A DNA stretch of 27,641 nucleotides from a virus. A model generated the notes under the pieces. That model searched no databases, was not told where the DNA came from, and saw only the letters and a list, made by a program, of their open reading frames with translations. Location: positions 1-27,641 of IMG/VR virus record IMGVR_UViG_3300033153_006512; one strand, written 5' to 3'. Position 1 is the stretch's first letter; each line of letters opens with the position of its first letter. A program made the translations under genes and the position numbers. Positions 10,579 through 27,641 of this stretch are shown here, piece by piece.

Positions 10579-10788
10579 ATGCCAGCACCAAACGCCAAGC
10601 CAGATCAAAAACTTTATGTAGTCAAGAAAAACATCCGGTACAGAAATCCGGATAAGAAGCTCGGGTTATACCGCGCTCTTATTACCCCGGACTCAGATCT
10701 TGGCAAAAAGGGATTGCCGTTTCCGCATCTGAAGCCAGAAGAAATCAAGTTGCTAGAACGACGCGGGTTCATCGCTCCAAAGAAGTAA
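10579..10788 (+). CDS. Small basic hypothetical protein before tail tube genes
   Basis: 69 residues with AAGG at 10567-10570. It is rich in Lys, Pro and Arg (KLYVVKKNIRYRNPDKKLG, HLKPEEIKLLERRGFI) with no membrane helix. A final LKPEEIKLLERRGFIAPKK resembles short helix-turn segments of small phage proteins found before the major tail gene. Role unknown. Confidence 0.6.
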   Translation: MPAPNAKPDQKLYVVKKNIRYRNPDKKLGLYRALITPDSDLGKKGLPFPHLKPEEIKLLERRGFIAPKK

Positions 10789-10835
10789 GCCCGCCACAGT
10801 CCCGTTCTACTAATAGAGTAATGAGGTAATAACCA

Positions 10836-11354
10836 ATGACAAAAACAGCCAATAGTTATATCTCCGATCAAGGAGAACTTGTCTTAACCGTAGACTCCGT
10901 ACTAACGGACATAGCGTACTTCACCACCGCAGAACCAGTTATTTTTGACGGTGTGCTGAGAAAGCTCGAGGAAACGTCTCCCAAAACCAGGGAATATTCA
11001 GAGGTCTTTGTAACCGGAAGTACATCGCCTATCAAGACGATGAGTTCCAAGCAGACCGCAACAGAATGGACCTTGACCATACTTGACGACTACAGTGCCG
11101 GAAACACTGGCGAATGGGGAACCGACGAACTCACCGCAGTTGAAACATTCCAGCAGATCATGGACAACGCCTTAGTAATAGCGGACCTGGCTTGTACACC
11201 GGCCGGAGGCGCGACAGGCGACATCGAAACCACGCTGGTCAACGTCGACGTAAAATCCGTAACCCACCCACCGATTGACTCTGACGCGACGAACCCGCAA
11301 GAAGTAGTAATCATGCTCGTGGTCGAAAGCTACACCAAGGCCGCACATAGTTAA
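10836..11354 (+). CDS. Tail tube protein, copy 1
   Basis: 172 residues with GAGGT at 10823-10827. It shares with the next gene long identical blocks: TANSYISDQGELV at the N-terminus, EETSPKTREYSEVFV and SPIKTMSSKQTATEWTLTIL in the middle, and GDIETTLVNVDVKS plus PPIDSDATNPQEV near the C-terminus. It is beta-rich and of the size of siphophage major tail proteins, and sits between tail terminator and chaperone genes, where the tube gene is expected. Differences concentrate at residues about 17-42 and 88-122, which may be exposed loops. Confidence 0.7.
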   Translation: MTKTANSYISDQGELVLTVDSVLTDIAYFTTAEPVIFDGVLRKLEETSPKTREYSEVFVTGSTSPIKTMSSKQTATEWTLTILDDYSAGNTGEWGTDELTAVETFQQIMDNALVIADLACTPAGGATGDIETTLVNVDVKSVTHPPIDSDATNPQEVVIMLVVESYTKAAHS

Positions 11355-11367
11355 ATAGGAAAACAAT

Positions 11368-11895
11368 ATGCCAGATAAAACAGCCAATAGTTATATATCT
11401 GATCAAGGCGAATTAGTATTCGTCATCAGCGCAGCAGCCGTGACCGCAATCGCCGCCATAACCACAGAAGAAGATATGATCCTTGATCTCGTTCTGCGGA
11501 AGTTTGAAGAAACGTCCCCTAAGACCAGGGAATATTCCGAGGTGTTTGTTGCAGGAGACGTCAGTCCCATAAAGACTATGAGTTCCAAGCAAACCGCAAC
11601 GGAATGGACCTTGACCATACTCGACGACTATTCAAGCGGCGGGACACCGGAACTCGGTGGTACTCCTTGGACCACAGCCGTAGAGCTTTTCCAAGAATAT
11701 ATGGATGCAGCGTATACTCTTGAGGAATTGTCACTCACTCCCGCAGGTGGAGTGGCCGGAGACATCGAAACCACATTGGTGAACGTAGATGTGAAGTCGA
11801 TTACCCACCCGCCGATTGACTCTGACGCAACCAACCCGCAAGAAGTGACAATTATGCTGGTCGTGGAAAGCTACACAAAGGCCGCACATGGTTAA
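11368..11895 (+). CDS. Tail tube protein, copy 2 (tandem paralogue)
   Basis: 175 residues with AGGA at 11357-11360, only 13 nt after copy 1. It is aligned end to end with copy 1, with identical blocks such as KTMSSKQTATEWTLTILDDY and HPPIDSDATNPQEV and variable blocks between them. Nucleotide matches through the conserved blocks are also high, with mostly synonymous changes, so the pair arose by tandem duplication. One copy may be the tube subunit and the other a minor or capping tube protein, or both may co-assemble. The last 8 nt overlap the chaperone start. Confidence 0.7.
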   Translation: MPDKTANSYISDQGELVFVISAAAVTAIAAITTEEDMILDLVLRKFEETSPKTREYSEVFVAGDVSPIKTMSSKQTATEWTLTILDDYSSGGTPELGGTPWTTAVELFQEYMDAAYTLEELSLTPAGGVAGDIETTLVNVDVKSITHPPIDSDATNPQEVTIMLVVESYTKAAHG

Positions 11896-12313
11896 AAGCG
11901 AATCCATAGAGCTGCCAGAGTTCCTAATGGCATTGCCCGAAGATTTGCGCCCCACTCGTCCTAAAGTAAACCGGCTGGTCTTCCCATCACCGTTGAAGGA
12001 ATGGCCTGGAACAGTCACTACCGCATGTTATCTGAGCGCAGAAGAATATCATGTGTGGTGGACTAATTCAGGGGACGGCCAGCCAGAGGACGACAAACGG
12101 CATTGGGCGTACTTCGATTGGGAGACGCGGTTCCACTTCGCGAAAGCCTGGGCTATCGAGGGTCTTGACAACGATCAACTAAAAACGGATCCAAAAGATA
12201 TTCCAGACACGCGCCTGATAATATGGTACGTCACAGTAACCAATACCATTATTCAGGAGGCTACGTTACTCCCAAACTCGCGAAGGCCGTCGAGCGAAAC
12301 TTTGATCACGTAA
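11888..12313 (+). CDS. Tail assembly chaperone, G-type product
   Basis: 141 residues; the ATG overlaps the stop of the second tail gene by 8 nt. It is the upstream frame of a lambda G/GT-like pair directly ahead of the tape measure gene. The protein is Trp/Asp-rich (YHVWWTNSGDGQPEDDKRHW) with mostly helical C-terminal half. Ribosomes that do not shift read to the stop at 12313. Those that shift at CCCAAAC (12271-12277) continue in the -1 frame to 12609, giving a fusion of about 240 residues. Chaperones of this sort coat the tape measure and recruit tube subunits. The call rests on frame structure and position, not on a recognised domain. Confidence 0.75.
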   Translation: MVKSESIELPEFLMALPEDLRPTRPKVNRLVFPSPLKEWPGTVTTACYLSAEEYHVWWTNSGDGQPEDDKRHWAYFDWETRFHFAKAWAIEGLDNDQLKTDPKDIPDTRLIIWYVTVTNTIIQEATLLPNSRRPSSETLIT

Positions 12314-12609
12314 AAGAATCGCAAGATGGCCAGCGTCACAAGGACAATGTGGATCCGCTACCGTGGCCGCACGAACTTGGTTTGAGTATCATAGATCAGG
12401 CAACAAACAGTCCGAGATTTTGGCCCTGGCCGACGAGAGATTGGCTATTCAACAAACCAGCCCTTGATGCCATAAACATTGTCTCCTTCATGCAAAGATT
12501 ACTTAAAAAATCAGGCGAGCTTTGGACAGATAATGATAACAGCTTCTATCGAGCGATTCACGCAAAGCCAGAGGTAGTGCAACATGGGCGCAATAACGTC
12601 ACATTATAA
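12223..12609 (+). CDS. -1 frame extension (T-type part of GT chaperone)
   Basis: This frame is open from 12169 to the stop at 12607-12609. The listed start is its first ATG, which has no Shine-Dalgarno, so expression as a fusion from 11888 is more likely. After the slip the reading continues with LAKAVERNFDHVKESQDGQ and adds about 110 residues. These are Trp/Pro-rich at first (PRFWPWPTRDWLF) and then helical (NIVSFMQRLLKKSGELW). The segment ends 26 nt into the tape measure gene. In the known system this domain binds tail tube subunits. Confidence 0.7.
   Translation: MVRHSNQYHYSGGYVTPKLAKAVERNFDHVKESQDGQRHKDNVDPLPWPHELGLSIIDQATNSPRFWPWPTRDWLFNKPALDAINIVSFMQRLLKKSGELWTDNDNSFYRAIHAKPEVVQHGRNNVTL
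12255..12277 (+). promoter_or_regulatory. Programmed -1 ribosomal frameshift signal
   Basis: The slippery heptamer C CCA AAC (12271-12277) is exactly in the X_XXY_YYZ phase of the upstream frame. In the slip the P-site codon CCA re-pairs as CCC and the A-site AAC as AAA. AGGAGG at 12255-12260 lies 10 nt before it and has no start codon at a suitable distance, so it fits an internal Shine-Dalgarno stimulator as known from E. coli dnaX. Only a weak 4-bp stem (CTCG 12277-12280 with CGAG 12291-12294) is visible downstream. Confidence 0.82.
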
Positions 12610-15600
12610 TCTTGCAATAATAATCCAAGAGCAACGGCGCGGAAACGCAGTTCGGGATCTTAAACAAGATCTAACGCTAGTCAACCAACGTCTTGACAAA
12701 CACGGAGTTGCGGCCGGACAAGCTGCGTCTAAGACAGAACAGTTTGTCACAAAGACGAAACGGCTAGGCCAAGCTCTCAGAAAAGTTCTAGTACCAGCAT
12801 TGCTTCTGGCCGCAACCGCAGTTGCAAAGCTCGGCACGGATGGAGTCAAAGCCTTTGCTCAGTTCGACAAAGGGATGCAGGAGGTTTTTACACTCATACC
12901 GGATAGATCAAAGGAGATGGAGGACGAATTAACCAAGGGCATTCAAAATGTGGGCAAGCAATTCGGATACCTAACCGAAGAAACAATACCTGCTTTGTAC
13001 CAAGCCCTATCAGCGGGTATACCAGAAGAAAATGCCATAACAGCAGTAGAATTAGCGGCCAAGGCCGCAAAAGCGGGAGCCTCGGATCTAGAGAGTACAA
13101 TGCGTATTGGCATGGCCGTTGTGAATGCCTACGGTGGAGAAGTCTATACGCTTGGCGAAGCCTACGATCTAATATTTCAATTAGTCGATAAAGGAGTTCC
13201 ACGACTGTCTGATTGGGGGAACACCCTGCAAGACGTTATCAGCATCGCGTCAGAAGCCAGAACCCCATTTGAGGACATCGTGGCCGCACTCGCCGTTATG
13301 ACTCGCCAGGGCGACACCGCGGCAGAGTCAGCCGAATTACTTGGCTTTATCCTCATGCAGATGCAGATTGAGGGAACGACCGCAGCCGGAGTCTTTATGG
13401 AGGCAACCGGACAAAGCTATCGCGAATGGATCGCCACAGGACACGGCCTCGTAGAAGGGCTTCAAATGATAGACCAATACGCGATCGATACAGGCCAACA
13501 TCTTGACAGCATGATTGGTGGTAGCTCTAACTTCTATCGAGATCAACAAGCAGCTCGTGGAACAATGGAGCTGACCGGAATACACATGCAGGAGCTAATA
13601 GATCTCGCTAAGCTTGTAGGCGAAGAACAAGAAGGCTCGATGGAGAAGGCATACGGAACGGCCTCCGACAACGCACAGCAGAGCCTGGATGAAATGGCCG
13701 CGAAATGGGAAATCATAAAAATAAAGATAGGCGAAGCGATTTGGGAGCAGGAAATATTCTTTGGTTTTACCGGAGAGGAACTATTTGATAGCGCAGGAAC
13801 TGTCTTGGACTACGCCACAGACGATCTAGGGGACCAGTTAATAGGCAACCTGGAATCAGCCATAGGCGAAATAAAAGACAGGAATATGCTCGAGGAGATA
13901 GCAGAAGCCTGGGTGTCAGAAGATAGAACGATAGAAATACCGTTCTTTCCAGACTGGGAACTATTTGAGGAAACAACGGCAGAAGGAAAAGAAATACTAG
14001 CGCGAGAACTAGCCCAATACTATGGTCAATACGAGGATTATTCTCGAGCCATACGGAAATTGGGATTAGTAGAACAATACCGACTCGATCCTGGCCTTCT
14101 TCAGCAAACAACAGGTGATCCACTAGGCGAATGGGCAAAGAAAAGACACAAAGAAAATGCAGAACTGACGTCCCAAATACAAGAGTATTACAACGCTGTC
14201 TTTATACTCCAAAGTGAAGAAGAATTGAACATGCTTAATCTCAAGCAGGTCAATCAAGAAATACAGCAAGAGAATTTAGAAAAGGAAGCGAGTTTACAAA
14301 GACAGGCAGAGTACAACGAAGAAAATCTGTTCTTTTTTGACTCATTTTATGCAACACAACAATCTACCGTGGATTTGCTAGGAATGTATAACGATGGCCT
14401 AATAACCCAAACGGAATATTGGGAACAATTAGGAGTTTACGGGAAGGAGTTCGGGGAGGTTGTTCATTGGATCGCCGTTGACACTCGCGCCATGACTTCT
14501 GAAATGAGCAGCTTTATTTCCATTGTGGGCACACAAGGAGCGAAATTATACGATGGCTATGACGCACTCGCCGAGGCTTCCGGAGAATGGACTCAGATTC
14601 TCACAAACAACGCTGGCGAAATCGACGCCGTAATGGAACAGTTGGGAACTGATCTAAGCGACGACGAGCAAGGTGTCATGCGCGGAATATTGGATACCGC
14701 CGAAGAAGGTGGAACCGCATGGTTGGCCGCATGGAGAGCCTTGCAAACAGACTTGACCCAAACTCAACGAAACGAACTCATAGCGCGAATGGCCGATCTG
14801 CAAGCAGCAGACGGAGTTTACAAAGGCGTTTGGACCGGCAACAAAAAGGCCGCAGAGGACGCAGAGGCTGATATACTGGCAGCTCTCGAAGCAATAGAGA
14901 CTGGTTGGAACAACATGGTAATCGAAGTATTTGCGGCCAATCTCGCCCTGGATTCAAGACTGGCCGGAACGATAGAAGCGCAAATTGCAGAAATTAGACT
15001 TCAAGAAGCAATGGGCGAAATAAAACCAGAAGTGGCCGAATCACAAATAACTTATTTGGAAAAAGCGAGTCAGTTAAAAGAGATACATGACGAAATGTAC
15101 ACCGCTTACATGGCAGACGGAGTGCTTGCGCAAGAAGAAGCCGCAAAAATGGCAGTCGCAGAAGACACAGTGTTCTTGTCAGCCGAAATGACAACCAAAG
15201 AATTAAAGAAACAAATAGACGCAGCGACAGCTTACGAAGGCGGCTACCCGTATGTAGTAGGGCTTATCAGAGATGATCTTAATCCAGCATTAGATGATAC
15301 GGCAAATAAGGCTAAGAAACTTACAGAAAAGCCAATCGTGCCGGAGGTCGGCATGGACAAAGTGGCATTTGACACAAAATACAAATTCTTGATGGAACAA
15401 ATAGACGAAGCAGAGGGACCGCATGAGGTCGAATTCTACATGAGCCAAATGCCGACGCCACCGGCAACTCCCGATGCCAGGGAAGCAGGTGGAACCGGAG
15501 GCACTTACAGGACTGTTCCAGGCGGCTATCCGAACGACTCCTACCTCCTCGGCCTAACAAGTCGCGAGGAATACTCGGTTTTAACGCCAGGCCAAGCTAG

Positions 15601-15748
15601 AGGGCAGGGCGGGGGAGGTCGGCAGTACATTGACCAAAGCCACCACACAACCATTATTAACAATCACACTCGCGCAGCAGCCGCCGTGTCCAGAGCCTAT
15701 CTAGACACTTTGTACGATCAAAGATTAAGACGATTTGTAGGAGAATAA
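12584..15748 (+). CDS. Tail tape measure protein (TP901 type)
   Basis: 1054 residues with AGAGGT at 12570-12575; overlaps the chaperone by 26 nt. N-terminal helical region, a hydrophobic helix near residues 69-80 (VLVPALLLAATAVAKL), then a block FDKGMQEVFTLIPD, FGYLTEETIPALYQALSAGI and AAKAGASDLESTMRIGMAVV, which is characteristic of TP901-type tape measures. Long charged helices follow (residues about 330-900). A Gly-rich linker and a short C-terminal helix (AAAAVSRAYLDTLYDQRLRR) close it. It sets tail length and is threaded in the tube lumen. No lysozyme, peptidase or other enzymatic domain is evident. About 1054 residues suggests a tail of very roughly 150 nm at the usual 0.15 nm per residue. 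Confidence 0.92.
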   Translation: MGAITSHYNLAIIIQEQRRGNAVRDLKQDLTLVNQRLDKHGVAAGQAASKTEQFVTKTKRLGQALRKVLVPALLLAATAVAKLGTDGVKAFAQFDKGMQEVFTLIPDRSKEMEDELTKGIQNVGKQFGYLTEETIPALYQALSAGIPEENAITAVELAAKAAKAGASDLESTMRIGMAVVNAYGGEVYTLGEAYDLIFQLVDKGVPRLSDWGNTLQDVISIASEARTPFEDIVAALAVMTRQGDTAAESAELLGFILMQMQIEGTTAAGVFMEATGQSYREWIATGHGLVEGLQMIDQYAIDTGQHLDSMIGGSSNFYRDQQAARGTMELTGIHMQELIDLAKLVGEEQEGSMEKAYGTASDNAQQSLDEMAAKWEIIKIKIGEAIWEQEIFFGFTGEELFDSAGTVLDYATDDLGDQLIGNLESAIGEIKDRNMLEEIAEAWVSEDRTIEIPFFPDWELFEETTAEGKEILARELAQYYGQYEDYSRAIRKLGLVEQYRLDPGLLQQTTGDPLGEWAKKRHKENAELTSQIQEYYNAVFILQSEEELNMLNLKQVNQEIQQENLEKEASLQRQAEYNEENLFFFDSFYATQQSTVDLLGMYNDGLITQTEYWEQLGVYGKEFGEVVHWIAVDTRAMTSEMSSFISIVGTQGAKLYDGYDALAEASGEWTQILTNNAGEIDAVMEQLGTDLSDDEQGVMRGILDTAEEGGTAWLAAWRALQTDLTQTQRNELIARMADLQAADGVYKGVWTGNKKAAEDAEADILAALEAIETGWNNMVIEVFAANLALDSRLAGTIEAQIAEIRLQEAMGEIKPEVAESQITYLEKASQLKEIHDEMYTAYMADGVLAQEEAAKMAVAEDTVFLSAEMTTKELKKQIDAATAYEGGYPYVVGLIRDDLNPALDDTANKAKKLTEKPIVPEVGMDKVAFDTKYKFLMEQIDEAEGPHEVEFYMSQMPTPPATPDAREAGGTGGTYRTVPGGYPNDSYLLGLTSREEYSVLTPGQARGQGGGGRQYIDQSHHTTIINNHTRAAAAVSRAYLDTLYDQRLRRFVGE

Positions 15749-15751
15749 TTC

Positions 15752-17245
15752 ATGGCCGCATATTTAGCCGTAGCTAATTTTGACGAAACAGAAAAATACG
15801 ACTTCACACACGCAGCAAGCAAGGTTCGGCTAATAACCGGAACCCTCAGTGATACGACAAGCGAGCTTGGCGAACCAGTCGAATTGCGTTTCCAGACAGT
15901 CACCAAAGGAACTGCGGCTGAAATACGACTCGCGCTCACTCAAGTCGAGACTATTTTTGGGCGAACCGCCAAGTTCTTCCTTGATTTGACATCACAGAAC
16001 AGTATTTGGATGTACGCCAACAGTGATGGAGAAAGAGTTAGGCGAGCTCTTGTTCTTTCGTGGCAGCGCGTAGACACTGTTCAAGGACCGTCAGATCCCT
16101 TGCTCGATAAATCACTTATGGTCATAAGCGATTGGATAATTCAACGCAAGGGATATTGGGAAGCAACGCTAAGTCACATATATGATCCGGCACTAACATG
16201 GTGGCCCGACTTTAATTCAGGTGCTTGTATGGCAGGGACATTCACCGGAGATGGACACGGTACAGAAGAAAGCGACATGATAGACAAGGGAACCGTACCT
16301 GGAAGAATAAGGGAATGGCGCTTTACGTGGCCCACCGTCTACTCAACTAAATACTTTGACAAAATGTGGTTCGGGATGAAAACGACTACGGCGCTGGAAG
16401 GTGGAGGCAATCTCTTTAAGCCATTCGCTAATTTTGACAGCACATGGGGAAATCCGGACGTTTACGACTCGTACATCACCCAAAATTACACGGTCGGGCA
16501 AAGTGGAATTGCCCTAAATGGCATTTGCGCCGACATCGAGTTCGATGGTGTAGGACGCGCACCAGAATGGAAAAACAGAATCAGTGTTCCAGTTCCCTTC
16601 CACAACACACAGCCAAGAAACCAGAAAGGGACATACCAAATTCTATTTAGGATGAGAGCTAAAGCAGCAGGTGGCCGCTATCGAGTGGCAATGTTTCAAG
16701 CCTGGGACAAAATAGACCAGGTTTACTCAGTCGCCGAAACCTACCAGGATGTATTTGTGGAATCGACCGAATACCACTTATATGAAATGGGAGTCATACA
16801 AGTGCCGCCAGAAAACTATAGGTCGGCAAGACGAACAACGCCCGAAGATTTTTACCAGCTCAACATCGGCCTGGCGGCAGAAAGGCTTTCTGCGGACCAG
16901 ACCGGGACGCTCCAATTGGATATTCTTATCTGGATACCGCAGGAACATTCGATTACACTTTCGAACATGAGAGCAAGAAGCCCAGGTGGTATCAGTGTAA
17001 TTACAGATGAAGAAGATATTGCCTTTGGATTTACAACTGTTTCGTCGCCATGGGAAAAATTCGTCCATGAAATATCGGAGAATAACTGGACCTGGCCGTC
17101 AGATCCAGATCGAGATGTGATTGCGGTTATGGCAGCAGATATTCCAGAGGGAGACGGTCATCATCCGTTGACTTCGGATATAACAGTTTCTGATTTTGAA
17201 ATCATTCCTCGTTATCATTCGTATAATAAAGACTCGTACTCATAA
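15752..17245 (+). CDS. Distal tail (Dit-like) protein, enlarged
   Basis: 497 residues with AGGAG at 15739-15743, 3 nt after the tape measure stop. It is beta-rich throughout. The N-terminal 150 residues (SKVRLITGTLSDTTSELGE, TIFGRTAKFFLDLTSQNSIW) would be the tail-ring domain. The rest contains a probable jelly-roll or galectin-like segment (residues about 290-410, TYQILFRMRAKAAGGRYRVA, then TGTLQLDILIWIPQEH). It is about twice the size of classical Dit proteins. Position after the tape measure fits; the fold is inferred. It could instead be a baseplate or tail-tip protein with a carbohydrate-binding insertion. Confidence 0.5.
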   Translation: MAAYLAVANFDETEKYDFTHAASKVRLITGTLSDTTSELGEPVELRFQTVTKGTAAEIRLALTQVETIFGRTAKFFLDLTSQNSIWMYANSDGERVRRALVLSWQRVDTVQGPSDPLLDKSLMVISDWIIQRKGYWEATLSHIYDPALTWWPDFNSGACMAGTFTGDGHGTEESDMIDKGTVPGRIREWRFTWPTVYSTKYFDKMWFGMKTTTALEGGGNLFKPFANFDSTWGNPDVYDSYITQNYTVGQSGIALNGICADIEFDGVGRAPEWKNRISVPVPFHNTQPRNQKGTYQILFRMRAKAAGGRYRVAMFQAWDKIDQVYSVAETYQDVFVESTEYHLYEMGVIQVPPENYRSARRTTPEDFYQLNIGLAAERLSADQTGTLQLDILIWIPQEHSITLSNMRARSPGGISVITDEEDIAFGFTTVSSPWEKFVHEISENNWTWPSDPDRDVIAVMAADIPEGDGHHPLTSDITVSDFEIIPRYHSYNKDSYS

Positions 17246-18390
17246 TGGAACCAGAAGAAAGAACAGGCACGAACCCATATCTTCCACAAGAGCGGCTGAA
17301 ACCCAACATTAGAATCTATCAGCCATTAAAATTGGGTTCTCGCTACATAAGCGACATAACAAAATACGCCACCGGATACAGACAAGCGATTCGCCTTTAC
17401 GGAGGGTATTGGACAGCAACATGGAGTATGGAAAATCTAGGCGTTGCCCAAATGAAAACCTTCTTTTCGCAAAAAATTGGCAATCACATGGCGGCTTATT
17501 CCGGAGGCTCGAAAATATGGGAAGGTTTCATCTGGTCAATGGACTTCTCTAACAATGGTGTTATTAGACGAATCTCGCTTGACAAGGTACGTAATGCCAT
17601 TAAGTGCATTTACACAGACGTTGACGACGACGATGCCAGAGCAGAGACAAGCTGGTATAAAAACGACAACAGCATAGCTCGATATGGAGAGATGCAGGAA
17701 ATCGTCTACCTAGACAAAACCACGGCGATAGCAGCCGAGGCATATGCACAAACGGTCTTGGCCGAAGGTAGTACGCCACTTCCGTTAATTGTCGCAGTTA
17801 AAGAGCCAAAACCAGACGAGATCGCTACATTAAGAGTTTCGGCAGTTGGGTACGCCTACACACTCAATTATAAATACTTGTCGATAGCCGATACTAAAGT
17901 GTCAATCGACACAGCCGTAACGAATGTTGTTTCAACCGATGGAGAGTTTGTTACAGATGGAGTAATCGAGGCCAATGCAGTAGAAGTGCAGCCGCCAGAC
18001 ACGGAAACAAAGGCATGGGACTGGCTAGTCGAACTGGCAGAAATCGGAGACGGTACATCGCCTTATACAATCCAGGTGTTAAATGACCAGAAATTATTCT
18101 ACAAGCAAATGAATCCGGCTCCGACTATTATTTGGAATGGCAAGCGACTAACAACAGCGTCCGGAAGATCGCTTTCACAAGGCAAGTGGTCTGCGAGGCC
18201 AGGGGTTTTAAGAGATTTAACTTGGGACAACATCGCGCTTCCGGCCGAAATGTTTTTGGACAACCAGCGAGACACATTCGTTTCAGAAATAGAGTCCAGT
18301 GTTGAATACAATATTCCACTACTGAAATCTGACGACCAGCCAGATTCAGATATGATCGTAGCATTAACCAGAGCATTAACTACGATATAG
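17245..18390 (+). CDS. Tail hub/tip protein (probable)
   Basis: 381 residues; the ATG shares a base with the previous stop (TAATG), so translation is coupled. It is beta-rich in its first 130 residues (LKPNIRIYQPLKLGSRYISD, YGGYWTATWSMENLGVAQMK) and later contains a segment VAVKEPKPDEIATLRVSAVG and a repeated strand pattern to GRSLSQGKWSARPGVLRDLT. Hub proteins of siphophages (Tal/gp27-like) occupy this position and close the tube end; length is in range. I see no peptidase or lysozyme motif. Identification is from position. Confidence 0.45.
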   Translation: MEPEERTGTNPYLPQERLKPNIRIYQPLKLGSRYISDITKYATGYRQAIRLYGGYWTATWSMENLGVAQMKTFFSQKIGNHMAAYSGGSKIWEGFIWSMDFSNNGVIRRISLDKVRNAIKCIYTDVDDDDARAETSWYKNDNSIARYGEMQEIVYLDKTTAIAAEAYAQTVLAEGSTPLPLIVAVKEPKPDEIATLRVSAVGYAYTLNYKYLSIADTKVSIDTAVTNVVSTDGEFVTDGVIEANAVEVQPPDTETKAWDWLVELAEIGDGTSPYTIQVLNDQKLFYKQMNPAPTIIWNGKRLTTASGRSLSQGKWSARPGVLRDLTWDNIALPAEMFLDNQRDTFVSEIESSVEYNIPLLKSDDQPDSDMIVALTRALTTI

Positions 18391-18398
18391 GTTGAAAC

Positions 18399-21300
18399 AT
18401 GCCAGGACCTAAGACCCATTACGGGAAACGCTCAAAAGATAAAGAGTCAAGAGAAATAAAGCAACGCATGAACATTCCTGCCGTTGCTGGCGGGGGAGGA
18501 GTAACCGACCATGGCGACCTAACCGGCCTGGCCGATGACGATCACGCGAATTACATGCACTTAACCGCCGCCAGGGTGGTGACAGCGCAACATTCTTTCA
18601 GTCCATCTTCAGCCCAGGCGCCCTTCGTATTGGGAGCAAACGCACACGACCAGATAGTTACCGGCCTATATGCAGAGCAAGCCGACCAACTCCACAAAGA
18701 TGTAATCGCCGGAGCAGGAATGACTGGCGGGGGAACGCTTACTTCCGATACTACCCTTAACGTCATCGGTGGTGTTGGAATCGCTGTCAATGCTGATGAC
18801 GTTGCACTTGGCACACCTACCTCACTTTCCGTGTTGACCTCAAATGACGTTAGCGGAACAACGCACGAACACGAAATCATTTCAACAGAGGGCGCAGCTC
18901 CTGGTGGATCTAAAATTCTGTCCACCGACGCTAGCGGCTATTTCCAGGCGACTAGACTAGGGTTAGGTGTGGCTCCTGGGACATGGGCATTAAACATTCA
19001 AAACAGCTCTGTTCCACAAATGAGGCTTGCTTATTCTGGCCTAGCCGCCGATACAGTTTATATAGGAGCGGACAGCGCAGGAAATCTTGAAATAACTCCC
19101 TACGGCGATCTAGAACTAAAAAGCGGCTCCCTTGAGATAACCAGCGGGGGCATTGCCTTGAACGGCTTAACTGCTACGGATGATGACTTCAGATCACAAG
19201 GAGACATTTCTATTCAAGGTGGTCTTTACATCGGCAATTGGAACGAAAACCCTACTACGTATAGCATAGTTGTCGACCAGCAATCTGAAGACGGTATGGC
19301 TTTTTCTCTCCGTTCTGGCGATGTCACCCACGGCATGACCGATCTGGCACATACTGAAGATTACCTGATTATGCGCAAGCTCGTCGGCGGTGGAGGGGGA
19401 CTTCGTTTCGAGGCTTTTGGCGACACCGGAGTAAACATACCTACAACGATGATGTTGCGGGCAACTACATCAGAAGCTCTCGACACTACAAAAGGCACAA
19501 GCACACGTGCGGTATTAGAGCTGGAATCATACGAGAAAGACGGAACCACCCGACAGGCTCCCGCCAATGCCGATGGAGCTATCTTTGCCGTTCGTAGTGG
19601 CTCTACAACCAGATTTATAGTTGATTCAAAAGGAGATGCTTGGCTTGACAATTATCTTGGAATAGGAATCGCGCCAAGTTACCCATTACACATTCTCTCG
19701 ACTACCGAACCACAGATACGGATAGAGCACACAAGCGGTATTGACTATGCCGATCTCAGCGTAGACAGCAACGGTATGCTAACGATTGATCCAACAGGAA
19801 CCCTAGATCTACTAGCCAACACAACCGTAACCTCGACCACAGCGAACCAGCTCAGAGTAGCGTATGACGGTAACGACTACTTCAACATCGATGTTAGCTC
19901 TGGTGGCACAGCCCACCTCTCCACCTATGATGGCCCAATTTACATTACACCTAATGTTAATGGGGGCACTCCATACAGAAGCGAAATATATTTGCGAGGG
20001 TGGGTATCCATTCAAGGCTACACGATTGCACCAGAAGCGGCATTGCATATATCCGATCCCACTCAGCCGCAAGTGACTATTAGATCAGGAGTGGCGTCTA
20101 CCGCAATCAACATTTCCGCTTTTGGAACCTATGCTGTAATCGATACTGCCGCCAATGACAACCTAGAGTTAAAACCAGGCGGAGATCTTAAACTACTGCC
20201 AATCTCTGGCAAGACCGAGATAACCGGAACACTTGAATTCCAAAGTGCCTCTGATGTAACTACGGTGTCAGGAAATTTGACACTTCAACCAGCCGGAGCA
20301 TTGGTTCACAACCCAATAGGGAACCTGATTCATCCGGAAGATAATTATGATGTAAATCTAGGTTCTATAGATAAAAAATACCTGGCACTTCACGCCGCAG
20401 AATTATGGGTGCAGACTCTGGTTGCCGAAAATGTAATGTCAACCATCGGCGGCAGAATCATCGTAACACCAACCACTCAACTAACACTAGATCTGGACAC
20501 AAGCGTTTACACCATTTCCGTTGAGCATAACGAAATGCAAATAGGCGACATCATAATGCTTGAGGCCGATGGAAAGATCGAGTTTATGAGGATCGAAGGA
20601 GCAGCGGGGGGTGGAGGACCGTACACCTACGTTGTCGAACGCGATTTAGACGAAACGGGCGAAAACCAATGGTACGCAGGTGACGCATTGGCAAACACAG
20701 GCGCGGCAGGAGACGGTTTCATTGACATGTACTCCGTTAGCGGGGTGCAAGCAGCGTCTTCTTATGGGCCAACAATCGTGGGAAATGTTCGCAATGCGCA
20801 AACGGCCTCCGAGCTGTTCCTTAATGGCGATTTTGAAGATCGCGATCAGACTAATATGCTCATTGCCCAAAACTACACGCTCGAATCCACCGGCCAAGTT
20901 CACAAAATAGAAAATTATCGTTTTGAGACTCTTGGCGGTGGCGGCGCAGATGTCTTTGCGAGTTGGGCAGAAACCGCAGGTGATGGAGCAATCGCAGCAG
21001 ATGGCACTATCAAATATACTGGCAACTACGCCCTCAAACTAACAGCAGGGGCTTCAGCAAACACCTATATCTCTCAAAGCGAAGTAACTACAACTACAGA
21101 CGGTGCTGAGTTCATGTGGCAGTTCTGGACTCGCGGCGATGGCTCAAATGCCGCACGTATTAGGGTTTATGATAACACGAATACAGCCGACATTGTCCCA
21201 TTGCAAAGCACAGGAATAACCAGCACTACTTGGACTTACGTTGAGCTTTTCTTCAGTATGCCATGGGGGTGCAGTAGTTGGCAAGTGGAAATGCACTGTC

Positions 21301-24300
21301 CCTCTGCCAATGGCGGCATTGGCTGGTTTGACGAAATGCGCGTTTGCGAAATCACGATGGACACGTTTGGCTATTGGGGTGATTCTGCTACTGGTAGCAA
21401 GACAGCGTTCAGAGAGCATCTTGTGTCCTATAGCGGCACAAAATCCGCTCAGTTTACAGCAGGAAATCCCGCAGTTAGACGGCCCGCCCTTCGTGAAACT
21501 TCTAACACCGTTACGCCATATGAACAATACGCATTAGGAGCGATGTACAAATCCTCGACTGGAGGAGAAGCACGTGCTGCCGTTAAAGAAACGGTTACTC
21601 AGACCTATATTACTCCTATAGAGGGCAACTCAGGAATCATTGATGCTGTTCCGACTGACTGGACCCTTCAAGAACGCCATTTCCTAATTCCTCCTACCGG
21701 AAGCAATATGTGGATAATGTGGTACGGCTCTAATGACGACGATGAAGTCATTTGGGTAGACGATGTGTTCTTGTATAAGTCCAATGTTTGGGATGATTGG
21801 ATACAAAGCACTGACACTGGCGATATTCACGAAACTGACCCGACTACTTCCGTCACAGGCAACCATTCCATCAAGCTAACAAAAGGCACAGGCGGCGACG
21901 GCTTAAATCATGTAAGGCAAGAAGTTGCCGTCTCTAGTAGTACTGATTATAAAATAACGTTTTACACCAAAGGCGACGGCACATACGATGGTCAGTGGGG
22001 TGTTTGGGACAATACACATACAGAGTGGCTCCAAGCCAGAATAGATACGGGAATAACAGCGGGTAGTTGGGGGAAAAAGACGTTTTCATTCACGACTGGA
22101 CCGACCACGATTGCGGTCACGCTGTACTTGTTCGCTCCAGCCACAACGGGAGGATCGGCCTGGTTTGATGCCGCTAGTTTTACAGAGCCTGAAATATACA
22201 ACGATTGGTCGGAATATTTCGCACTTGGCAATCTCAAGGGCAACTACGGATACGGAGCAGACACTTACGCATTGGGTCTTGGCCGATATGACGACACCTA
22301 CAATCACATAACTATAGATTCGGACGATGGCATTAGATTCTACGATGGACAAACCCTAGTTATTGGTCAATGGAACGGTCCCGAAATGACTCTCGGAGCC
22401 TACAATGCAGAAAGGTTAATTCTTAATGACACAGAACTAAAACTTGTAGACGAAACAAGTGTTGAGCAAATTAAAATATCGGGCAATCCATCGACTATGG
22501 TCATCGGACCTGCGGCAAAAGAACATCTCGAGATTACAGCCGGAGCAATAGAATTCTATGATTCGGTAGGTAGCGCGATCATAGCCTCTCTTGCCAGTGA
22601 CATATGGACAGTCGGGAAAATAGCCACAGAACACATTTCAATAACCAGCACCGCCATTGAAATAAAAAGTGACGCCTCGACCGTCCTGGGAAAATTTGAA
22701 GGATCCACTATCACGCTTGGCGAAGGTTTTCCTGCAACGCCGCAAACCGTTCTAGGCGTAGACAGCATCACAATGTCAGACGTCAACGGAAACGAATACT
22801 TTGAATTAGCCGATGGCGAAATGTCACTCGGGTTCGCGACCACCGAACATCTCGATTTTACAGGTTCGGAAATGCAATTTTACGTAGGCGTAATTTCGTA
22901 TGGCGAAATGTCGTCTACTCTATGGAGACTCGGACGCGACAATCTTCAAAGGTTGGAAATTACAGCAAGTAGTATCGACATGTACGATAGCGCCAATGAC
23001 AAGAAAATTGCTCTTAGTGTGGCAAGTGGACTTCAATTCTACGACGAGCTAGGAACACAGATTGTCCAATTAGCTTCCGATGGAGACTTCCTAATAGGGA
23101 CGGTCGCCACAAACCAAGGCAACATGTTCTATGACTACGCCGCAAAACAACTACAGTTTCGCGGAGGTACAAATGGTCTTGACGTAGAGGCGTACGTCGA
23201 CACAGATGGCAGAATATACGCAGGTAGCGGTGCGGTCCAACTTGGCAAGGGTGGAATAAAGCTAAACACTGACGCCTCCGGAGGGTCCGGAGAAGCAGCC
23301 ATAAACATTTACGGTGGTGGCTTTAGCACCCTCATAGGACATGTGTCCGGTTCTTACTCAACTGGCGGGGGTGGCGCATACAGCCTCGATCTAGAATTAG
23401 AGGGTTTCGGCAATAGTCTATACCTCAGACTGACCAGCGCGGGATCAACCTTTGACTATCTGCAAGGTTATAGCGACGATTTTATAATCTTCGAAACACT
23501 AAACTATGGAGTCAACATACATGGAAAAGGCCTGTATGTTGGCACAGGAGTTTCAGGTTCGGCAATACCGGAAGGGGAATTGCAGGTAGTAGGCAAAATA
23601 TTCGTCAATGAAACAGTAGACACTTTCACGACTAAGGGTTTGGTCATTAATATTGGGGACCGCAACGATTACGGCCTAACCATCAAACAGGCCGGAGTGT
23701 TTGGCAGCACAGGACATACTTTTACAGCATTAGCAGAAAAGGACACCTTCTTTGGTATAAACGCTTGGGCAGACGATCTTGGTGGAGCAGCCATCAGAGG
23801 CTATTCGCGTGACGCCCAATCTCGCGGTGTATCAATACACGGATATGTAGCAAACCCAAACACTACGTCGCCAGGCACTTCCGTGGTGGGCGTTGTTATA
23901 ATTGATGCAGCAGACAATAGTGGGACTGGCGCGGGAACCGTAGGCACTACCGGAAACATATTCGCCGTACAAAACAACGGATCTACTCGTGCGGTTCTCA
24001 GGGGCAACGGAGATTGGTACACAGATGGAACTAACTCCGGAACCTGGGACGACTATGACGACATTGCGCTAATAAGCGGGCTAAGAGCCAGCCTGTTGCC
24101 GGTCGGCCATGAATTAAGAGAACGATTCGGCATATGGATCGAGAAAAGCAAACACATACTTTCAGAAAGTGGCATTGTTTCCTACAATGACGATGGACAT
24201 CATTTCGTCAACCATCTCGGGCTACAATGGCTCACTATTGACACTCTTAGGCAATTCTATGACAAGCAGGAAATTGTCAACGAAAGCGTCTTTGATGAAT

Positions 24301-24362
24301 TGGCACGTTATAAAAAAGCGTTTAAGATTCTAGGAATAGATCCTGATTTAGTGGAGGCATAA
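18399..24362 (+). CDS. Giant tail fibre with three CBM-like domains
   Basis: 1987 residues. The N-terminus is basic, then comes the fibre motif HGDLTGLADDDHANY (about residues 38-52), common in phage fibres, and a GMTGGGTLTSDTTLNV-type strand motif (about 107-122). Repeating modules follow (about 190-650) with patterns such as LGIGIAPSYPLHI and PQIRIEHTS followed by DSNGMLTIDPTG. Three consecutive carbohydrate-binding-module-like (CBM4/9-type) jelly rolls follow at about 803-986, 988-1128 and 1130-1270, each ending in a W/IWFD-V motif (GWFDEMRV, VIWVDDVFL, AWFDAASF). Residues about 1303-1575 hold about seven beta repeats of about 36 residues. The C-terminus is helical (GLRASLLPVGHELRERFGI, ELARYKKAFKILGI). 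It probably binds the host surface. Confidence 0.8.
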   Translation: MPGPKTHYGKRSKDKESREIKQRMNIPAVAGGGGVTDHGDLTGLADDDHANYMHLTAARVVTAQHSFSPSSAQAPFVLGANAHDQIVTGLYAEQADQLHKDVIAGAGMTGGGTLTSDTTLNVIGGVGIAVNADDVALGTPTSLSVLTSNDVSGTTHEHEIISTEGAAPGGSKILSTDASGYFQATRLGLGVAPGTWALNIQNSSVPQMRLAYSGLAADTVYIGADSAGNLEITPYGDLELKSGSLEITSGGIALNGLTATDDDFRSQGDISIQGGLYIGNWNENPTTYSIVVDQQSEDGMAFSLRSGDVTHGMTDLAHTEDYLIMRKLVGGGGGLRFEAFGDTGVNIPTTMMLRATTSEALDTTKGTSTRAVLELESYEKDGTTRQAPANADGAIFAVRSGSTTRFIVDSKGDAWLDNYLGIGIAPSYPLHILSTTEPQIRIEHTSGIDYADLSVDSNGMLTIDPTGTLDLLANTTVTSTTANQLRVAYDGNDYFNIDVSSGGTAHLSTYDGPIYITPNVNGGTPYRSEIYLRGWVSIQGYTIAPEAALHISDPTQPQVTIRSGVASTAINISAFGTYAVIDTAANDNLELKPGGDLKLLPISGKTEITGTLEFQSASDVTTVSGNLTLQPAGALVHNPIGNLIHPEDNYDVNLGSIDKKYLALHAAELWVQTLVAENVMSTIGGRIIVTPTTQLTLDLDTSVYTISVEHNEMQIGDIIMLEADGKIEFMRIEGAAGGGGPYTYVVERDLDETGENQWYAGDALANTGAAGDGFIDMYSVSGVQAASSYGPTIVGNVRNAQTASELFLNGDFEDRDQTNMLIAQNYTLESTGQVHKIENYRFETLGGGGADVFASWAETAGDGAIAADGTIKYTGNYALKLTAGASANTYISQSEVTTTTDGAEFMWQFWTRGDGSNAARIRVYDNTNTADIVPLQSTGITSTTWTYVELFFSMPWGCSSWQVEMHCPSANGGIGWFDEMRVCEITMDTFGYWGDSATGSKTAFREHLVSYSGTKSAQFTAGNPAVRRPALRETSNTVTPYEQYALGAMYKSSTGGEARAAVKETVTQTYITPIEGNSGIIDAVPTDWTLQERHFLIPPTGSNMWIMWYGSNDDDEVIWVDDVFLYKSNVWDDWIQSTDTGDIHETDPTTSVTGNHSIKLTKGTGGDGLNHVRQEVAVSSSTDYKITFYTKGDGTYDGQWGVWDNTHTEWLQARIDTGITAGSWGKKTFSFTTGPTTIAVTLYLFAPATTGGSAWFDAASFTEPEIYNDWSEYFALGNLKGNYGYGADTYALGLGRYDDTYNHITIDSDDGIRFYDGQTLVIGQWNGPEMTLGAYNAERLILNDTELKLVDETSVEQIKISGNPSTMVIGPAAKEHLEITAGAIEFYDSVGSAIIASLASDIWTVGKIATEHISITSTAIEIKSDASTVLGKFEGSTITLGEGFPATPQTVLGVDSITMSDVNGNEYFELADGEMSLGFATTEHLDFTGSEMQFYVGVISYGEMSSTLWRLGRDNLQRLEITASSIDMYDSANDKKIALSVASGLQFYDELGTQIVQLASDGDFLIGTVATNQGNMFYDYAAKQLQFRGGTNGLDVEAYVDTDGRIYAGSGAVQLGKGGIKLNTDASGGSGEAAINIYGGGFSTLIGHVSGSYSTGGGGAYSLDLELEGFGNSLYLRLTSAGSTFDYLQGYSDDFIIFETLNYGVNIHGKGLYVGTGVSGSAIPEGELQVVGKIFVNETVDTFTTKGLVINIGDRNDYGLTIKQAGVFGSTGHTFTALAEKDTFFGINAWADDLGGAAIRGYSRDAQSRGVSIHGYVANPNTTSPGTSVVGVVIIDAADNSGTGAGTVGTTGNIFAVQNNGSTRAVLRGNGDWYTDGTNSGTWDDYDDIALISGLRASLLPVGHELRERFGIWIEKSKHILSESGIVSYNDDGHHFVNHLGLQWLTIDTLRQFYDKQEIVNESVFDELARYKKAFKILGIDPDLVEA

Positions 24363-24364
24363 AG

Positions 24365-24619
24365 ATGGCATTCGGACAAGCAGAGAGTAAAATTCCAGCG
24401 ACTATAGGGATAGTCAAAATTTCACTAAGCACCTTTCCTCAAAAAATATGGGGAGCAGTTCAGGTGCTTGACCAAGATGGCGAGTTAATGGAAGTAAGGA
24501 GGTTTAGAGATATATCGCCGCATTTAACACCGGCTCAAATCACAGGGCTGCAAGATTTTATGGTGGCCATGAGAGCAAAGGCCGTAGAGGAAATCATACC
24601 CGATACACCAACCCCCTAA
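24365..24619 (+). CDS. Small hypothetical tail-region protein
   Basis: 84 residues; GGAGG at 24353-24357 lies inside the end of the fibre gene. The chain starts with mixed strands (TIGIVKISLSTFPQKIWGAV) and ends in helix (SPHLTPAQITGLQDFMVAMR). No membrane segment or known family. Position after the fibre gene suggests a fibre-assembly or tail-tip role. Confidence 0.55.
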   Translation: MAFGQAESKIPATIGIVKISLSTFPQKIWGAVQVLDQDGELMEVRRFRDISPHLTPAQITGLQDFMVAMRAKAVEEIIPDTPTP

Positions 24620-24631
24620 AGGAGATTTACA

Positions 24632-24988
24632 ATGGAATTAACATTACGAGAGTTCGTAGACGCAGAGATAGCCCTGGATTCACTAACAAAGAATCCAAAT
24701 GTCCCGGCGCTGGCCTCATACAAGATCGCGAAGAACGTCAAACTGATCACGAACGAAACCGAAGCCTATTGGGAAGTTCGCAAAAACCTTCTGAAGCCCT
24801 TCGCAAACGACAAGGGCAAGATCGATTATCCAGATCTAGAAACACAAGAAAAAGTAAGCAGCGAACTTGACGAGGTGCTAAGCCAAAAGGTCAAGGTCGA
24901 CATCAAAGCTATCAATATCAAAATGCTCGAAAAGGTAAACGTCGCACCGACCGTGTTCCATCAAGCATGGTTCTTGTTCAAAGACTAA
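24632..24988 (+). CDS. DUF1617-like phage protein
   Basis: 118 residues with AAAGGAG at 24618-24624. It is helical and charged. The pattern of KIAKNVKLITNETEAYWEVR followed by NLLKPFANDKGKID and ending in VSSELDEVLSQKVKVDI resembles the DUF1617 family: 'kI..N...l..e...y...R..Ll..y....g.......F..e...Ll...V.vdi'. DUF1617 proteins occur in tail regions of siphophages; their role is not known. Similarity is read by eye only. Confidence 0.55.
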   Translation: MELTLREFVDAEIALDSLTKNPNVPALASYKIAKNVKLITNETEAYWEVRKNLLKPFANDKGKIDYPDLETQEKVSSELDEVLSQKVKVDIKAINIKMLEKVNVAPTVFHQAWFLFKD

Positions 24989-24990
24989 TA

Positions 24991-25317
24991 ATGACGCTAG
25001 ACTGGCGTATATATTACGCAGACGGAAGTGTATTCGATAATTTGCAAGGAGAACCTTGGGAGGCTCCGGCCACTAGGGTTCTCCTTATCCTGCAAAAAGA
25101 TATTAACGCCACGAACGGCGCGTATCTAGTCTGGAAAAGAGACTATTACTTATGGAAGTATGACAAATGGGTAGAGGTGGACTATCCAGCATTACTTCTA
25201 TATTGGTTCATGGAGAAATTTCCGTATCCGAAGGCTTCTCTAGCAGGGGAGACAGTAGACAATTACTACTTTGAACACATAACAATGTTAGCCAAAGCCG
25301 ACAAGGACTTCTTCTAA
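24991..25317 (+). CDS. Trp/Tyr-rich small hypothetical protein
   Basis: 108 residues from the ATG at 24991, two bases after the previous stop (an earlier in-frame ATG at 24967 lies inside the neighbouring gene). Few upstream Shine-Dalgarno bases, so coupling is likely. Rich in aromatics (LDWRIYYADGSVFDNLQGEP, YLWKYDKWVEVDYPALLLYW). No signal peptide or clear membrane helix. Unknown function; small aromatic tail-region proteins can be head or tail accessory proteins. Confidence 0.6.
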   Translation: MTLDWRIYYADGSVFDNLQGEPWEAPATRVLLILQKDINATNGAYLVWKRDYYLWKYDKWVEVDYPALLLYWFMEKFPYPKASLAGETVDNYYFEHITMLAKADKDFF

Positions 25318-27321
25318 ATGACCGCTACAACTTATGAACTCGTGGAGTTTCAACTCCAAGAGAACACAAGCGAAACAGGCACATTACTAGGCTCTTTGAA
25401 CTCCGACGAGTCTATTGGCGTAGGCACAGCAAACGCCTTTGCCATACGTCTCCAAATATGGAACGACAATAACCGGACATCAAACCGAACGTGGGGGTGG
25501 GAATACAAACTAAACTCCGGAAGCTGGATAGCCATAACAACGTCCAGCTCCGTTGCCAGAGCCTACGATGTCGCCGGACTAACAGACGGAGGGGATACAA
25601 CAAACAGGCTGACAAGTCGTGGTGGAGACTTCCTTACTGATAACAACGCGGTCTGCGAAAATGGAGTCGGCACAAGCTACACACATTCTAAGGGAGACTA
25701 TACAGAAGCACTCCTGTCCTTCTACATAATAGACGCTGACGTATCTGATACTGATAAAGTTTATTTCCGGCCCGTAGATGGCGTGACCGTGACAATGACC
25801 AACAATCCGGTCATTACGGTTTCTAAAGTTTCAGTAGTCACCTTCGCCGGAACCGCAGCCCTGGTTACAACGACTCCGGACATCGATCTTAATCTCTCCA
25901 TTCCCTTCACCGGAACAGCGGCATTAGTCACAACAACTCCAGGTATCGACCTTAATCTCGCCATTCCCTTCGGAGGCACAGCCGCATTTGTTACGACAAC
26001 ACCTGACACAGTTGTCATTACACTAACAAAGTTCTTCGCAGGAACCGCCGCGCTTGTCACAACAACTCCGGACATAGACCTCGCAGTAGCAAAGACATTC
26101 GGGGGGATCGCCGCACTCGTCACGACCACACCGGCCATAGACATTCTGGTAGACAAAGCGTTTGCCGGATCAACCGCGCTTCTCACGACGACCCCTGACA
26201 TAACACTAGCTGTAGCTAAGACATTTGGCGGGACAGTCTCGCTCGTCACGACAACGCCTGACACTGTTGTCATATCGCTTACAAAACTATTTGCAGGAAC
26301 CGCCGCGCTAGTCACAACGACGCCTGACATCGGCCTGGCTGTGGCTAGGACGTTCGCAGGAACCACAAGCCTTATCACAACAACCCCCGCCATTATTTTA
26401 GCCGTAGAGAAGGTATTTGGCGGTACTGCCAGCCTGGTTACAACAACTCCGGACACCGTTGTTTTAACGGTTGGTGGTCTTATAATATTTGCCGGAACCG
26501 CCGCCCTAATTACGACAACTCCCGCTATCGACCTTGGCCTAAACTTGGCCTTTGGTGGATCGGCCGCGCTCGTCACGACAACGCCAGGCGTTACGCTGGC
26601 CGTGGACAAGGTGTTCCAGGGCGCAACAGCTCTAATCACAACGACTCCGGACATCGATCTTCTGGTAGACAAGACGTTCGGAGGCATAGCCGCGCTCGTC
26701 ACAACGACTCCGGACACCGTTGTTGTCAAACTCGCCAAGCTATTCGCCGGAACAGCAGCGATGGTCACGGTAACTCCGGGCATCGATCTCAACGTAATCA
26801 AGACGTTCGGAGGCATAGCAGCATTAGTCACGACGACTCCGGACACCGTTGTCCTTACTTTGGCCGGTATCGTTTCGTTTGCAGGAACGTCAGCCCTTGT
26901 CACCCTAACGTCAAGCGCGGGCCTGTCAGTAACCAAAGTGTTCGCCGGACAAGCAGCATTAGATACCACAACCCCTTCTGTAGCATTAGATATTGCGAGA
27001 GGCTTTTCGGGTCAAGCCCATTTAATAACCTCTACTCCCTCAATAGACCTGAATTTAGCGAGAGGTTTTGGAGGAACTGCCCATGCACAATTTGTAACAA
27101 GTGACACAGTAACGCTCGGACTGGCAAAGTTATTTGCCGGAACAGCGCACATGCAATTCCTGACTCCAGATGACGTTGAGTTGTTATTGCGCGTGGCCGC
27201 TGGATTAGTTAGTATTAGCATAACGGCACGTATGCCAGGAGCATCAATCTCGGCCAGAAGGCCAGAGGCAACAGTCTCGGCAAGAAAGCCAGAGATAACT
27301 ATCACTGGAAGAAATGAATAA
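25318..27321 (+). CDS. Tandem-repeat tail/adhesin-like protein
   Basis: 667 residues with AAGGA at 25303-25307, starting directly after the previous stop. Residues 1-175 form a beta-rich module (FAIRLQIWNDNNRTSNRTWG, then EYKLNSGSWIAIT) of a type often seen in phage structural proteins. From residue 176 come 21 tandem repeats of 21-22 residues (core FAGTAALVTTTPDIDLxVxK), diverging toward the C-terminal end where the TTTP core becomes QFVTSDTV and QFLTPDDV. A short C-terminal tail (residues 633-667) holds four nonapeptide-like repeats (ASISARRPE, ATVSARKPE). Probably a long beta-structured fibre or spacer at the tail end. No enzyme domain. Confidence 0.7.
   Translation: MTATTYELVEFQLQENTSETGTLLGSLNSDESIGVGTANAFAIRLQIWNDNNRTSNRTWGWEYKLNSGSWIAITTSSSVARAYDVAGLTDGGDTTNRLTSRGGDFLTDNNAVCENGVGTSYTHSKGDYTEALLSFYIIDADVSDTDKVYFRPVDGVTVTMTNNPVITVSKVSVVTFAGTAALVTTTPDIDLNLSIPFTGTAALVTTTPGIDLNLAIPFGGTAAFVTTTPDTVVITLTKFFAGTAALVTTTPDIDLAVAKTFGGIAALVTTTPAIDILVDKAFAGSTALLTTTPDITLAVAKTFGGTVSLVTTTPDTVVISLTKLFAGTAALVTTTPDIGLAVARTFAGTTSLITTTPAIILAVEKVFGGTASLVTTTPDTVVLTVGGLIIFAGTAALITTTPAIDLGLNLAFGGSAALVTTTPGVTLAVDKVFQGATALITTTPDIDLLVDKTFGGIAALVTTTPDTVVVKLAKLFAGTAAMVTVTPGIDLNVIKTFGGIAALVTTTPDTVVLTLAGIVSFAGTSALVTLTSSAGLSVTKVFAGQAALDTTTPSVALDIARGFSGQAHLITSTPSIDLNLARGFGGTAHAQFVTSDTVTLGLAKLFAGTAHMQFLTPDDVELLLRVAAGLVSISITARMPGASISARRPEATVSARKPEITITGRNE
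25843..27195 (+). repeat. 21 tandem copies of a 21-22-codon repeat
   Basis: Protein-level repeat beginning with F(A/G)G(T/I/S)(A/T)AL(V/I)TTTP. Copies start every 63-66 nt, with two slightly longer ones. Nucleotide sequences have diverged but stretches such as GTCACAACGACTCCGGACA recur, so it grew by duplication of DNA. The last three copies are most diverged. Confidence 0.9.
27214..27318 (+). repeat. Four nonapeptide repeats at C-terminus
   Basis: Units of 27 nt encode ISITARMPG, ASISARRPE, ATVSARKPE and ITITGRNE. The consensus is x(S/T)(I/V)(S/T)(A/G)R(R/K)PE. Confidence 0.75.
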
Positions 27322-27342
27322 TGATCAGATGGAGAGAATATT

Positions 27343-27641
27343 ATGGGTAGTATTACAAACAGTTTAGCGCAAGATCTTCTAGACCATGTTTTGAACAAGG
27401 TAGCTTACACGAATCCAGCCGCCATATTCCTGTGCCTTTGCACCGCCGATCCTGGTGACGGAGCCACAGGCGCAAGCATGAGCGAAGTGCCGGACGCCTT
27501 TTCGTATCAACGAACCGCGGTTGTTTTTGGAGCAGCCGCTTCTAGAGTAATCGACCAGTCAGGCTCGGTTGATTTTCCAACAGCCTCGGGTGGAGCTTGG
27601 GGAGATGCGACACACTGGTGTATCGTCGACAACCAGACATA
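27343..27641 (+). CDS. Tail fibre/tail tip protein, 5' part (cut by window end)
   Basis: About 99 codons, with GGAGAG at 27331-27336, 6 nt before the ATG; the frame stays open to the window edge. The product begins MGSITNSLAQDLLDHVLNK and contains VAYTNPAAIFLCLCTADPG, YQRTAVVFGAAASRV and VDFPTASGGAWGDATHW. This order (N-terminal helix, 'AxxYlxLxTadP', 'Y.R..v.f.a', 'v.Fp.at..wG..t..gi') is a widespread phage tail-fibre/tail-tip family. It follows the repeat protein by 21 nt. The C-terminus is outside the window. Confidence 0.75.
   Translation, partial: MGSITNSLAQDLLDHVLNKVAYTNPAAIFLCLCTADPGDGATGASMSEVPDAFSYQRTAVVFGAAASRVIDQSGSVDFPTASGGAWGDATHWCIVDNQT

Follow-up and report, generated by a model that had tools for sequence, protein, structure and literature searches.

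Three CBM_4_9-type units inserted in a conserved tail-fibre chassis of a phage

Carbohydrate-binding modules (CBMs) are known decorations of phage tails, and the closest known kind to the locus described here is their insertion into the Dit proteins of siphophages, giving 'evolved Dit' proteins. Such insertions restore adsorption to, or enable infection of, lactococci that bear exopolysaccharide (EPS) (PMC10688798), and many combinations of CBMs have been reported on 936 phages (PMC6669499). Elsewhere, Bacillus phage baseplates contain CBM16-like folds, one protein of this kind being a binder of cells (PMC11406892), mycobacteria are bound by the CBM-fold domains of phage Douge (PMC13033339), and domain mosaicism has been described for phage receptor-binding proteins (PMC10684548; see also PMC5651945, PMC10276861, PMC7404976 and PMC13357471). 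Here we analyse a block of three tandem CBM-like units in the tail-fibre gene (18399..24362, plus strand; 1987 amino acids) of an uncultured phage, IMG/VR virus record IMGVR_UViG_3300033153_006512, all 27,641 bases of which make up the window. We read the block, with a probability of about 0.75, as three jelly-roll modules of the CBM16/CBM4 type set in a surface turn (site IV) of a siphophage fibre chassis, where they would serve as grippers of host polysaccharide.

The fibre resembles the evolved Dit of lactococcal and other siphophages (PMC6669499, PMC10688798) in that CBMs sit in a conserved tail protein and are present in some relatives and absent from others. Host binding and aid to adsorption were shown in those phages, whereas here they are predicted from sequence and model. 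The carrier also differs: it is a large fibre rather than Dit, with at least four insertion loops in its chassis and three units in the block, and a separate 497-residue gene follows the tape measure. The central fibre gp20 of mycobacteriophage Douge (8zdo) is likewise a tail-tip fibre with CBM-like domains and gives a weak profile match (E 0.014), but its chassis was not recognisably related by the searches made. The baseplates of Bacillus phages Vp4 and Deep-Blue carry several CBM folds in one tail apparatus, including the binder of cells, but the carriers there are myophage baseplate wedge and spike proteins (PMC11406892). Receptor-binding-protein mosaicism follows the same evolutionary principle; a fixed chassis with mapped insertion loops is not described in the parts of PMC10684548 covered. 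What is new here is one fibre scaffold, conserved and with its loops mapped, in which most relatives leave these loops empty and others carry CBMs, LamG or other domains in them. This set of filled and empty loops amounts to a natural experiment in the acquisition of binding modules by phages.

An insertion in a conserved fibre chassis

A preliminary description of this DNA had proposed three tandem CBM-like domains at residues about 803-1270 of the fibre, and a search of Pfam-A bore this out. PF02018 (CBM_4_9; curated cut-off 25.9 bits) matched three stretches of the fibre; the score was 33.7 bits when the whole protein was searched and 45.5 bits (E 1.2e-11) with segment 20808-22210 as the query. 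Taken singly, the units fell below the cut-off, at 21.9, 24.0 and 22.3 bits (E 2.5e-4, 5.3e-5 and 1.9e-4). Apart from CBM_4_9 and a weak match to DUF642, Pfam found nothing else in the fibre.

Comparison with related fibres shows, beyond what the preliminary description had noted, that the block has been inserted. L005 and L006 pass directly from the counterpart of residue 802 to that of residue 1267 (433/434 in L005, which reads GPTIVGNVRNSSTYNDW, and 500/501 in L006). The left chassis part (residues 607-802; 20217..20804, plus strand), recognised by the chassis profile, is 58% identical to residues 239-433 of L005, and the right part (22197..22388, plus strand; YNDWSEYFALGNLKG...) aligns with residues 501-562 of L006 at 53% identity. 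Between them lie the 464 inserted residues, 803-1266 (20805..22196, plus strand), at site IV, between TIVGNVR and YNDW of the chassis. These borders match the break in the conserved chassis and nearly equal the outer limits first proposed; with the domain borders marked below, they can be used for work with purified proteins.

We compiled 86 distinct chassis sequences, including that of the window, from a first round of scans (21 viral and 10 genome-collection loci) and a further viral scan that yielded 77 loci. Four loop sites were scored in the 82 sequences that cover the insertion region, with near-copies that differ in their match edges kept separate (for example L078/L079 and L093/L094). 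No insert longer than 12 residues was present at any of the four sites in 56 of the 82; eight had 13-19 extra residues, and 18 had at least 76 (L093, whose chassis alignment is irregular, is tallied among the inserts). Site IV was filled only in the window and in L020, where the insert of 148 residues contains one CBM_4_9 domain above the cut-off (35.5 bits). CBMs of the same subfamily were found at site I in L083, L086 and L088-L092, at site II in L110 and near the N-terminus in L011; at site I, those of L086, L088, L089, L090 and L091 exceeded the Pfam cut-off. Overall, Pfam analysis of 17 inserts returned six with CBM_4_9 above the cut-off, two with LamG, and the rest with no family above it. 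The L083 and L092 inserts, which received no Pfam call, were assigned to the CBM family from their alignment with L086 (42 and 43% identity), and both were among the sequences used to train the profile by which they are then matched.

Other domains also occupy this chassis. Concanavalin-like LamG_3 domains lie in or beside it in L087 and L093. Two further insert types lack a Pfam family. One is a YWNGSAW-type domain some 140 residues long, and the other spans 216-217 residues and is apparently doubled in L026; they sit in L021, L026 and L077 (site III) and in L022, L026 and L080 (site I), and Pfam was run on all of these except the L080 insert. The chassis-bearing frame of L027 runs for at least 4378 amino acids, up to the contig end, where it is still open.

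In the modelled chassis (mean predicted local distance difference test score, pLDDT, 73.9), each of the four sites is flanked by predicted strands. Site IV corresponds to the turn that links strands 185-191 and 199-207; the other three were located by counting from profile positions. The best match among solved structures was a phage VP1 capsid chain (Z 10.6 over 85 residues), followed by tail-tip proteins of JBD30 and Chi (Z about 9 over 77-81 residues), and Foldseek returned no match to the model at E < 0.001. From the model, the chassis appears to be a small beta-barrel of a kind common in phage proteins, and we claim no more for it. The chassis gave no match in 50,697 phage records, but a BFVD protein, A0A1P8DJG4, is 58% identical to it, and the chassis is thus already represented in databases. 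All ten genome contigs that carry it belong to metagenome-assembled genomes, spread over nine different named groups. As sequence queries, the block alone and the whole fibre found no match in viral contigs, the same phage records or solved structures.

The three units and their putative cleft

Unit 1 (20895..21347, plus strand) is complete, as judged by Pfam, a profile of the phage CBM family, an AlphaFold2 model and structural matches. Unit 2 (21360..21782, plus strand), the most divergent, and unit 3 (21780..22187, plus strand) were detected by Pfam and by hhalign against the family profile (E 3.9e-9 and 6.5e-20, respectively; ten rows, unit 1 among them), and neither has a first-strand motif in front of it. 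The score of unit 1 itself against the family profile was 201.5 bits, but unit 1 is in the training set of that profile. The units had been described as starting around a G-W/N-G-D or 'Y/F-W' strand. An NGD strand is present at 20814..20846 (plus strand; LFLNGDFEDRD), where a strand-1 matrix gives its second-best score in the whole fibre, but it is an extra first-strand copy upstream of unit 1 proper, which starts at about 20895, and units 2 and 3 lack a first strand of their own. Other features read from the sequence proved sound: the late aromatic strands TWTYVEL, DWTLQER and SWGKKTF share alignment columns, as do the endings WFD, WVD and WFD, and the units differ strongly, with 22 and 27% identity between unit 1 and units 2 and 3, respectively, and 14% for the remaining pair. 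Unit 2 is 14-25% identical to nine of the ten other units compared and 26% identical to that of L092.

A jelly-roll fold is predicted for unit 1, with ten-residue pLDDT means of 83-99. Its model, whose structural matches were also examined by Foldseek, superimposes on a porphyran-binding CBM with Z 17.6 (2.0 A over 136 residues), and gives Z 16.7 to CBM16-1, 16.5 to CBM4-2 and 15.5-15.7 to the phage tailspike domains 5w6h and 8iqe. For units 2 and 3 the earlier suggestion of a jelly roll stands on family homology: by profile match, they are of the same family as unit 1. Searched against solved chains, the phage family profile matched CBM16 (E about 4e-5), CBM4 1gui (6e-4) and, more weakly, the Douge central fibre.

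CBM16, a binder of beta-1,4-glucan or mannan, has two stacking Trp residues, W20 and W125 (Q121 is seen in entry titles). The W20 equivalent is Trp in 49 of the 49 units compared, including all three of the window, whose W20/W125-equivalent pairs are W and H, W and Y, and W and F in units 1-3. This pattern fits a cleft with one conserved wall and a variable opposite wall. Sugar binding by the modules is likely, as predicted from fold, context and parallels, and the second position (H, Y, F), together with the 14-27% identity among units, would allow different sugars for the three. The CBM16 of Caldanaerobius (Thermoanaerobacterium) polysaccharolyticus ManA (2zew, 2zex, 2zey, 3oea, 3oeb) is similar in fold (Z about 16.5) and in the stacking Trp, at about 20% identity; it differs in the second stacking residue and polar contacts, and belongs to an enzyme rather than a phage fibre.

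Role, origin and arrangement of the units

We propose that the modules protrude from the fibre shaft and that each would grip host surface polysaccharide through a cleft formed by the conserved Trp and the variable second aromatic residue. On a fibre that is probably trimeric, a number of individually weak contacts would raise the avidity of adsorption, and the protruding modules would make contact with the host surface polysaccharide more frequent and longer. Because most relatives are without them, the modules are probably accessory grippers and not the sole receptor-binding part. In CBMs the first and last strands lie side by side; a module could therefore fit almost any loop, including the loop of another CBM.

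Unit 1 resembles CBMs from other phages more than it does the two units beside it, an observation absent from the preliminary description: it is 32-42% identical to CBMs of other phage fibres, mostly at other sites. A scan for its subfamily gave 61 viral loci, and 54 of the 71 open reading frames matched (near-copies included) are without the chassis. On both counts, unit 1 looks like a circulating module rather than the product of a recent local duplication. A chassis tree of 83 rows required eight changes of the state 'CBM present', and a single clade of the 11 CBM-bearing rows was rejected (approximately unbiased test, p 0.0012); this was a quick tree with many weakly supported branches, and the CBM label was chosen after seeing the data. 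The site is empty in L014, whose chassis is the nearest to that of the window (63%). With nothing at this site in most relatives and a single such domain in one, these phages seem to gain and lose host-gripping parts as plug-in modules. Direct repeats flanking the block were sought, and none was found beyond one 14-nucleotide pair at 86%.

The arrangement of the units raises the question of nesting. Among the 65 distinct CBM bodies, eight are not preceded by a first-strand motif, and units 2 and 3 of the window belong to these eight. In L097, L101 and L126 the order is a first-strand motif, a complete CBM and a strand-less body, as expected had one CBM entered another behind its first strand. 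A first strand of their own is present in 57 CBMs; the four of these that directly precede a strand-less body (those three and unit 1 of the window) all rank among the five highest for an additional upstream motif; the chance of this is about 1e-5, or about 3e-4 with L097 and L101 counted once (our own arithmetic on a post hoc comparison). The score of LFLNGDFEDRD is reached by 0.0001 of background positions, and the window shows the same order of parts, with the extra motif, complete unit 1 and strand-less units 2 and 3. Since the pattern is clearer in three other proteins, nesting is possible in the window. The block would then be a nest of three levels, with CBM 1 lodged behind the first strand of CBM 2 and both together behind that of CBM 3; the first strands LFLNGDFE, IAQNYTLE and KIENYRFE would then stand in a row at the N-terminus, followed by the three bodies; we regard this as doubtful. 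Joining the extra motif to bodies 2 and 3 raised the family score by 3.7 and 1.5 bits, gains equalled by 17 and 43 of 300 random joins, and the join test thus lends nesting in the window itself no support. IAQNYTLE scored at background as a further first strand, at a level reached by about 10% of positions. Some rows speak against nesting as a general rule: for the orphan bodies of L113, L142 and L126_3 we found no clear additional first strand, and in L135 an extra motif occurs without an orphan body. A phrase search for nested CBMs found no paper in a literature coverage that leaves out most subscription journals. If nesting is true, binding modules accept further modules; a CBM loop would be a docking site for the next CBM, and the fibre could grow a branched glycan-binding tree at one point.

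Several observations weigh against a block of acquired sugar-binding modules. Units 2 and 3 had hardly any alignment rows in the AlphaFold2 job and were unfolded or mostly below pLDDT 60. The W125 equivalent is Y, F, W or H in 24 of 49 units and Arg in ten, and the Gln contacts of CBM16 are not kept in the phage units, so the ligand differs or binding has been lost in some units. Composition gives no sign of recent arrival (GC content at third codon positions 0.455 in the insert and 0.450 in the rest of the fibre), and the window and L020 share a weakly resolved fork, which makes a single gain at site IV possible for the two. The variable second stacking residue and the divergence of unit 2 would also suit jelly rolls that are structural, acting as shaft spacers or trimerisation aids and binding no sugar; a CBM-like domain does serve trimerisation in the tailspike KP34gp57 (PMC13082707). 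We consider this rather unlikely, however, as most relatives build the fibre without the modules, which are thus not needed for chassis assembly; the same chassis takes LamG domains elsewhere, and the W20 equivalent is invariant.

It is also possible, at somewhat less than even odds, that the block is a plain tandem array from an old duplication in the lineage, with the missing strands being truncations and the extra LFLNGDFED chance or a remnant. The small gains in the join test agree with this, and the greater similarity of unit 1 to other phages' CBMs speaks against recent duplication only. Similarly, there is an appreciable chance, short of one half, that the modules bind matrix glycans (EPS, biofilm or capsule) in a loose and reversible hold, with host range not decided by them. 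This would accord with their accessory distribution among chassis sequences and with the help that evolved Dit gives in adsorption to EPS-bearing cells (PMC10688798), but nothing here separates matrix holding from choice of receptor. A switchable receptor range, suggested at the outset from three different units in one protein, is highly improbable: neither inverted repeats nor a template-like repeat of the fibre were found in 12000-27641 of what is probably a fragment, and around the block the single 14-nucleotide pair is the only direct repeat. Gripping of host polysaccharide by modules inserted in the chassis remains the reading we prefer.

Gene order around the fibre

The order of PHROG matches in the window (terminase, portal, scaffold, major head, tape measure) is that of a tailed-phage late operon, and the record is probably a fragment. 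The tape measure gene (12584-15748) is directly followed by the 497-residue gene (15752-17245), and the fibre gene lies after the tape measure and two tail-tip genes, in the position of a tail fibre or receptor-binding protein, in agreement with its initial description as a fibre. A weak PHROG tail match (8.8e-07) covers fibre residues 86-153. The C-terminal domain (24006..24359, plus strand) is common to the fibres of L004, L005 and L006, with identities of 54, 55 and 39%, and was the entry point to these three related fibres.

A search for tRNAs found none. In L004, an 820-residue gene (2094-4556) with beta-propeller matches (Rax2, Kelch) lies between tape measure and hub, in the place held in the window by the 497-residue gene, and its N-terminal stretch is CBM-like by eye. 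L003, contig IMGVR_UViG_3300033154_000173, has a terminase and a head protein identical to those of the window, and the fibre used as a query found no match in it. Downstream of the fibre, a 667-residue gene (25318-27321) contains many repeats of about 21 residues (FAGTAALVTTTPDIDL...), with a 63-nucleotide period in the DNA; a similar repetitive gene of 1040 residues (10078-13200) lies downstream of the L006 fibre.

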